Assembly (NCBI RefSeq): GCF_005047355.1 | Contig: NZ_SUMC01000002.1 | Coordinates: forward strand, 186,001-250,000 | Reading direction: 5' to 3' | Source of the DNA: Actinacidiphila oryziradicis | GTDB taxonomy: Bacteria; Actinomycetota; Actinomycetes; Streptomycetales; Streptomycetaceae | DNA length: 64,000 bases | Program-made: the position numbers and the translations under genes | The notes under the pieces: model-generated | Told to the model about the DNA's origin: nothing | Database searches by the model: none | The model's input: the letters and a program-made list of their open reading frames with translations, nothing else | Part shown: positions 53,410 to 57,565 of the stretch, one piece after another | How the letters are laid out: each line of letters begins with the position of its first letter | How positions within the stretch are numbered: position 1 is the first letter of the stretch

Positions 53410-53466
53410 CAGCCAAACGCACCCGCCACATCACCCACGCCGGAATGGCGGGACCGGCAACCCCGG
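53410..53466 (+). repeat. dispersed repeat, copy 1
   Basis: AGCCAAACGCACCCGCCACA followed by CCCACGCCGGAATGGCGGGA. The same block recurs inverted at 56283-56343 and in direct orientation, more diverged, at 57436-57493. Confidence 0.75.
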
Positions 53467-56282: not shown

Positions 56283-56343
56283 GCCCGGAGGTTGTCCCGG
56301 TCCCGCCATTTCGGCGTGGGAGGTGTGGCGGGTGCGTTTGGCT
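56283..56343 (-). repeat. dispersed repeat, copy 2
   Basis: Reverse complement of the 53410 repeat (CAAACGCACCCGCCACACCT then CCCACGCCGAAATGGCGGGA). It forms the outer end of the left arm of the long inverted repeat. Confidence 0.75.
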
Positions 56344-56579
56344 CCCTTCGGTCGCGAAGATCAAAGGCGCTAACTGCGGAGGGGGAGGAGGGGGGCTTGT
56401 CTTGTCGGTTGGCTCCCGGGTGGGTGGGCGGCGGGCGTCAAGGCGGCTTGCGCGGCATCGGTTCGGTGGGTGTCTGGGGTCTCGTTGCCGGATCCTGGTA
56501 GAGATGGTCGGTGGCGACGCCTGTTGTCCGTGGGGGGTTGGACTGCCGTAACCGGCGGCTGACGGGTGCTTGGTGGCTT
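56290..56579 (+). repeat. left arm of a 290-bp inverted repeat
   Basis: It pairs with 57201-57488. By eye the arms are about 85-90% identical, with a perfect 65-bp stretch (56473-56537 against 57243-57307). No gene is seen in the arm. It starts 14 bp after the broken M14 gene. Confidence 0.9.
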
Positions 56580-56883
56580 GGCCCCGGGGCGGGGGAAGTG
56601 AGCGGGGGCCCGGTGGCTGCCCTCCCGGCCGGTGGGTGGGGGTCCAGGCGCGGGGGTGCAGAAACGTTCCGGCGGAGGGCGGGTGGCTCTCCTCCGGGTT
56701 CGGGGCAGGAACGTTTTTGCGGGGGATCGGGACGTCAGGTACCCGAATGGGACACTCTCACGGCCCCCGCTCGTAGTGTCGCTGTCTCATCGGGGCACCT
56801 CATGGATCCGCCCCGCCGCAGAATCGTTTCAGCGGGAGCCGCGAAGCCTTCCCGTGTCCGGCATATCGGTTAATTCCTCTCGT

Positions 56884-56966
56884 GCCTGCGTGCACTTCAG
56901 TCCTTGCTTGCGTACACCCCCGCCACACCGGGGTGTACGCAGGCATGGGTGGAAGTGCACGCAGGC
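56884..56966. repeat. nested double hairpin
   Basis: Outer arms GCCTGCGTGCACTTC / GAAGTGCACGCAGGC (15 bp, perfect). Inner arms GCTTGCGTACACCCC / GGGGTGTACGCAGGC (15 bp, one mismatch) with a 9-nt loop. Inner and outer arms share the GCxTGCGTrCAC core. Confidence 0.9.
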
Positions 56967-56982
56967 GGCCTCACTCGGGCCG

Positions 56983-57043
56983 AATGACGGGGCCCTTATG
57001 ACCACTTGGATCGATTCAAAGTGGTCATAAGGCCCCCGTCATT
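56983..57043. repeat. 25-bp stem, 11-nt loop palindrome
   Basis: AATGACGGGGCCCTTATGAC followed by CACTT pairs with the reverse-complementary arm AAGTGG...CGTCATT, with one mismatch. The loop is GGATCGATTCA. Each arm starts a short frame beginning MTT. Confidence 0.9.
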
Positions 57044-57200
57044 TCCGGTCACGGCGCATTGAGCCCGGGCCCACCCCGCAGCCCAGCAGAAACCTTTCCG
57101 CACCCCCCGGCCGCCTCTGCATCCGGCGGGCGAGCTCCACCACCCCCCGCTCCTGGCCCGGCAAGAGGCGGCCCCCAACGGCGCAGGCCGTGGAGGAGGT

Positions 57201-57488
57201 AAGCCACCAAGCACCTGTCAGCCGCCGGTTACGGCAGTCCAGCCCCCCACGGACAACAGGCGTCGCCACCGACCATCTCTACCAGGATCCGGCAACGAGA
57301 CCCCAGATACCCACCGAACCGATGCCGCACAAGCCGCCTTGACCCCCGCGACCCACCGGGCCGGCGGCCGACCGACAACCGGAACCCCCCTCCTCCCCAT
57401 CCGCAGTTAGCGCCTTTGATCCTTGCGACCGAAGGGAGCCAAACGCACCCGCACCCGGCCAATCAGAAATGGCGAGACCGGGACAACC
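57201..57488 (-). repeat. right arm of the 290-bp inverted repeat
   Basis: Reverse complement of 56290-56579. It ends about 77 bp before the stop of the geranylgeranyl reductase gene. No clear target-site duplication at the outer ends. Confidence 0.9.
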
Positions 57489-57493
57489 CCGGC
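57436..57493 (+). repeat. dispersed repeat, copy 3
   Basis: AGCCAAACGCACCCGCACCC with a more diverged middle, then AAATGGCGAGACCGGGACAA. It is the outer end of the right arm; compare 53410 and 56283. Confidence 0.75.
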
Positions 57494-57565
57494 GCCGCGC
57501 CCAGCGGACAAGAGCCCGCCAGCCACCAGCCACCAGCCGCCGGCCACCAACCGCCCGGCAGGCGT

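Follow-up and report, generated by a model that had tools for sequence, protein, structure and literature searches.

A large and very probably mobile family of gene-free, foldback-like palindromes in the genus Actinacidiphila

Foldback transposons, known from eukaryotes, have a short non-coding core enclosed by inverted arms of great length. Bacterial MITEs span 50-500 bp and descend from a transposon whose termini they share (review PMC10969869). The R0/R2/R200-type repeats of Pseudomonas fluorescens measure 50-352 bp and have inverted repeats of 11-43 bp; their reported tail-repeat-tail bias has been attributed to such positions doing the least harm (PMC2718517). REP, BIME and REPIN sequences, which are moved by TnpA-REP, are characterised in PMC2817692 and PMC8266576 as extragenic, palindromic, often arranged in inverted pairs and present in high copy, and PMC3733652 gives REPs as palindromes of 20-40 bp.

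Here we analysed a stretch of 64,000 nucleotides from Actinacidiphila oryziradicis (the window), which contains a 1.2-kb inverted-repeat element. We regard this element as very probably a member of a family of large, non-autonomous mobile repeats of foldback/MITE-like type, restricted to Actinacidiphila among the genomes searched. By anatomy only, it can be likened to foldback transposons in its long inverted arms and short non-coding core; unlike in those, no target duplication is seen in the family. With bacterial MITEs it shares terminal inverted repeats, the lack of a transposase gene, multiple dispersed intergenic copies and an occupied/empty polymorphism between relatives. It differs from them (PMC10969869) in a length of 0.43-1.2 kb (1.2 kb in the genome of the window and 430-727 bp for inserts in A. 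glaucinigra, against about 50-500 bp), in arms of 230-290 bp, in the missing target duplication and in that no parent element was found among the termini scored. Moreover, unlike in MITEs or classical transposon termini, the inner arm blocks are more conserved than the tips. An earlier note on this DNA had proposed a large MITE-like element without transposase. As an account of how the element behaves, this is well founded on the dispersed copies, the empty sites and the absence of genes, but the size exceeds that of MITEs and neither a target duplication nor, among the termini scored, an autonomous partner was found; on account of the size and the target duplication, we do not file the family as a MITE. 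The cassette remnant offered as another option found no support.

Compared by description, the family resembles the P. fluorescens repeats in being multicopy and intergenic, patchy in relatives and biased towards convergent genes, but those repeats are shorter and have shorter inverted repeats (PMC2718517). Extragenic location, palindromic form, inverted pairs and high copy number are features in common with REP, BIME and REPIN sequences as these papers portray them. Identity with REP or BIME was rejected, as the arms conserve a unit of about 235 bp against 20-40 bp and no ends are shared with the Y1 loci examined. Among non-autonomous bacterial repeats, we describe the family as a new variant that is large and foldback-like; we found no published description of it in the open-access literature, which is not proof of its being undescribed.

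Within the window, a repeat search places arms of 252 nt at 56328-56579 and 57201-57452, 92% complementary and ungapped, and an outer collinear block of 37 nt (56283-56319 and 57459-57495, 81%) extends each arm to about 290 bp. When the element was compared with its own genome by BLAST, the left arm matched the right at E ~5e-107, far above chance. This confirms the inverted repeat that had been described before. The perfect 65-bp arm identity of that description was also located, as were two strong nested hairpins in the core. Codon-usage gene calling found no ORF with coding signal in the element, whose core measures 621 bp. A single strand folds over nearly the full length, with an MFE of -983.5 kcal/mol as a raw value without shuffled baseline. 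The family-wide outer end is probably CCGGT at 56297-56301 in the left arm and ACCGG at 57477-57481 in the right. By window coordinates, the features are:

56283-56579, plus strand: inverted arm on the left, of end type Q; the arm model matches 56331-56572 at 162.8 bits
57201-57495, minus strand: inverted arm on the right, of end type P; the arm model matches 57208-57449 at 162.4 bits
56580-57200, no strand: gene-free core (repeat search and gene calling)
56340-56360, plus strand: left-arm conserved subterminal block, GGCTCCCTTCGGTCGC-AAGA, which recurs inverted at 57420-57440
57420-57440, minus strand: conserved subterminal block of the right arm
56473-56537, plus strand: left copy of the 65-bp stretch common to both arms and without mismatch between them, containing GGTCTCGTTGCCG-N6-GGTA-N-AGATGG, which is conserved in A. 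glaucinigra
57243-57307, minus strand: right-arm copy of the 65-bp stretch
56545-56561, plus strand: inner conserved block GCCGTAACCGGCGGCTG of the left arm
57219-57235, minus strand: inner conserved block GCCGTAACCGGCGGCTG of the right arm
56884-56966, no strand: core hairpin 1, with 37-nt arms (86%), present at further loci of the same genome
56983-57043, no strand: core hairpin 2, with 28-nt arms (93%)
53411-53466, minus strand: stray terminal arm fragment of the same family (BLAST in the same genome)

Core hairpin 2 is a small palindrome dispersed over about nine loci of its own genome, and it was found in 0 of 100 other family genomes searched. A piece of core without arms, 68 bp long and 97% identical to window positions 56575-56642, lies 44 kb away (L017, about 2449-2515; C112:286948-287015).

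The window element lies between convergent genes. On one side, at most 10 bp separate its start from the stop codon of a gene that is frameshifted and whose upstream part matches Peptidase_M14. On the other, about 70 bp lie between its end and the stop of an opposite-strand gene of geranylgeranyl-reductase type (menJ-like). As the gene beside menJ varies among species, menJ synteny gave no clean empty site for this copy in other species. Directly after the menJ stop, two other species (G021, L139; G020, L142) carry short MITE-like repeats of a different kind that have terminal inverted repeats (...GTGTCTGACACA... and ...TTTCGAAA...); since these repeats occupy the same position, the spot seems open to repeated insertion.

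The earlier note had allowed that the element might be confined to a single locus without homologues. Instead, dispersed copies occur both in the genome of the window and in Actinacidiphila glaucinigra CGMCC 4.1858. By BLAST, the former has about 10 copies on many contigs, six of them with both arms (A, which is the window copy, B, C, in which one arm is truncated, E, F and G); the solo or partial copies are D, H, I and J, and there are small fragments at other places. A. glaucinigra has at least 31 diverged copies, and where its DNA matches the window copy the identity is about 66-77%. An arm model matched at least 62 times in A. glaucinigra and 17 times in the genome of the window. Three further Actinacidiphila species hold traces only (G025 with two matches, G029 and G016 with a single one), and the remaining 30 genus genomes gave no match. 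Among 150 family genomes from 17 genera, Actinacidiphila was the sole genus matching, the 16 other genera of Streptomycetaceae sampled giving none, and in a class-wide sample of 148 genomes from 82 genera the window's own genome matched and the 147 others did not; both searches used stricter filters, with which weak matches can be lost. Plasmid and phage collections yielded no match to the element.

Fourteen A. glaucinigra copies between convergent genes were compared with the orthologous gene in a close relative, G025, with aligned flanks about 85-96% identical. Thirteen of the 14 orthologous sites lack the element. At sites L081, L090, L054 and L099 the flanks are 1-4 bp apart in G025 versus 536-727 bp in A. 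glaucinigra, and at such tight sites the inserted DNA stops where the element stops, with no neighbouring DNA co-duplicated. Sites L052 and L087 are empty in more distant species too, and thus insertion at these two took place in the A. glaucinigra lineage. In the genome of the window, the gap holding copy D spans 1,327 bp versus 327 bp in G013, and about 1,500 versus 235 bp in the comparison with G020. Occupied and empty sites, which had been suggested as a check, therefore exist for both carriers. One site is filled in both A. glaucinigra (L097) and G025 (L160), with arms that are not mutually closest: the L160 arm is nearer to other A. glaucinigra copies than to its positional counterpart, perhaps through independent insertion or arm exchange.

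The copies are not placed evenly with respect to genes. Of 46 copies or arm remnants, 26 lie between convergent genes, versus 10 of 89 other neighbouring gene pairs at the same loci (p = 5e-8), while 15 lie between tandem and five between divergent genes; the genes were called with a codon-usage script and individual cases may be wrong. The distance to a stop codon is often 13-60 bp. Location and predicted hairpin are compatible with a putative bidirectional terminator, and selection could keep the palindromes as functional two-way terminators or 3'-end RNA elements, which would stop convergent transcription or protect 3' ends, with spread being secondary. The convergent preference, the closeness to stop codons, the very stable fold and the conserved blocks all speak for this explanation, but the same gene pairs lack the element in most related species, and the tandem and divergent copies do not suit it. 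Nor is pairing maintained in A. glaucinigra, where the median arm identity is 0.783 within an element versus 0.788 between elements, which argues against both pairing selection and continuing conversion there. Some arm pairs in the genome of the window are closer (98% in copy E, 92% in copy A). A single arm also has no consensus structure and belongs to no Rfam family. We therefore consider a terminator or RNA function unlikely to explain the family. A structured non-coding RNA was rejected as an identity for the element: Rfam returned sub-threshold hairpin hits only and none at gathering scores, the alifold consensus was weak and no single-arm structure was credible.

The arms themselves carry a record of rearrangement. 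A. glaucinigra has end types T1 (CCGGTGGGTGGGTGCGGGTTCGTCTCGC) and T2 (CCGGTGGTTCGGCTGTCCCGCCGTCTCGC), and the genome of the window has Q and P; most elements have one end of each type, and T1/T1 was not seen. Inner arm types X and Y are likewise present almost always once each per element. About 12 A. glaucinigra elements read T1-X...Y-T2 versus about six T1-Y...X-T2, as typed by simple sequence patterns and by eye with some ends unassigned, so that about one third of typed copies have a core that is inverted with respect to their ends. Copies A and B in the genome of the window show the same difference. These flips indicate that arms recombine, and inversion by recombination between the inverted arms would generate both core orientations.

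Per-column arm conservation is correlated between the two genomes (Spearman 0.46, p ~6e-16). The main conserved blocks are the subterminal CTCCCTTCGGTCGCAAAG (with variants), the motif within the 65-bp stretch and GCCGTAACCGGCG; the best-conserved parts are the innermost blocks rather than the tips, in a conserved unit of about 235 bp within arms of about 230-290 bp in the two species. In copy B, neither arm departs from the 65-bp stretch of the window copy, which is also almost invariant in the other arms of that genome. This is family-wide conservation, and a recent duplication, gene conversion or selection at the window copy, as had been proposed, finds no support.

Flanking target-site duplications, also anticipated earlier, do not rise above chance. 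The longest flanking direct repeat is no better than in permuted pairs (p = 0.10), and the flanks overlap at 0 of 11 inspected junctions. As A. glaucinigra arms are about 79% identical, the burst is old and short target duplications could have decayed. All 40 scored A. glaucinigra termini, among the matches listed, lie in known gene-free copies, and no transposase or autonomous copy with family ends was found among these best 40 termini or at the Y1 loci examined. Of 35 genus genomes, 7 have a Y1/IS200 transposase, and these overlap with the carriers of the family, which mostly belong to one clade; it was rejected as the driver, because arms and ends match none of four genus Y1 loci. Copy J and the C279 fragment were rejected as ends of a larger transposon, their neighbours being ordinary genes.

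Four A. glaucinigra solo arms (L056, L084, L094 and L104) sit within another palindromic family, whose ends resemble GTGTGCGGGTTGTTTGCGCCTGCGGCGGGC. This second family is gene-free and about 1.1-1.2 kb long, and its four dispersed copies contain the galK 3' end together with one arm of the first family. In two of the four, the galK segment is 162-163 bp and 97-98% identical to the native galK locus; the other two have a continuous match of 493-495 bp, at 86-87%, to that locus. At the native locus, an element of the first family lies directly beside galK. Since the galK end is joined to an arm at four loci, family sequence and adjoining host DNA were spread together by another repeat; the direction and mechanism of this capture are inferred.

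That another repeat can carry family sequence with host DNA, that arms clearly recombine and that neither enzyme nor target duplication was found would all suit a spread by ectopic recombination or segmental duplication, with no transposition enzyme. At the tight sites, however, the empty flanks are separated by a few base pairs and nothing beside the element was co-duplicated, and the same two ends are common to copies. This route is, in our view, very unlikely. Palindromes are difficult to assemble and the genome of the window is a 389-contig draft, but an assembly artefact has a negligible chance of being the explanation, given that the arms are non-identical, the flanks unique, the copy inside a 330-kb contig and the architecture repeated in this genome, at five further loci with paired arms, and at many loci in an independent assembly of another species.

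Collectively, we favour a non-autonomous mobile family, which the restricted and patchy distribution, the stray fragments and the decayed copies also support. Several results speak against it: no transposase or autonomous copy with these ends was found among the termini and loci examined, no target duplication exceeds chance, conservation is highest in the innermost arm blocks, the window copy has no clean empty site, and the arms at the one site filled in both species are not mutually closest. We propose that an enzyme supplied in trans would recognise the arm blocks, and that whole copies would be inserted without lasting target-site duplication. Arm-arm recombination would then invert the core and mix arm variants, and survival would be mainly between convergent genes, where a huge terminator-like hairpin may be least harmful. 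More tentatively, and with considerable doubt on our part, the family might represent an undescribed mobilisation route, in which whole asymmetric palindromes of 0.5-1.2 kb, read via several deep arm blocks, are inserted beside gene 3' ends without target duplication, accompanied by a related gene-free palindromic family of A. glaucinigra that carries and spreads a captured galK 3' end and the adjoining arm.

These repeats form a dispersed class of unusual size and anatomy in an antibiotic-producer lineage, and their arms are hot spots of inversion. With natural pairs of filled and empty sites at hand, both the insertion rule and the missing enzyme can be put to the test. The convergent bias echoes the Pseudomonas repeat pattern in another phylum and, if true, it would be uncommon for a gene-free palindrome of bacteria to spread a captured host gene end.
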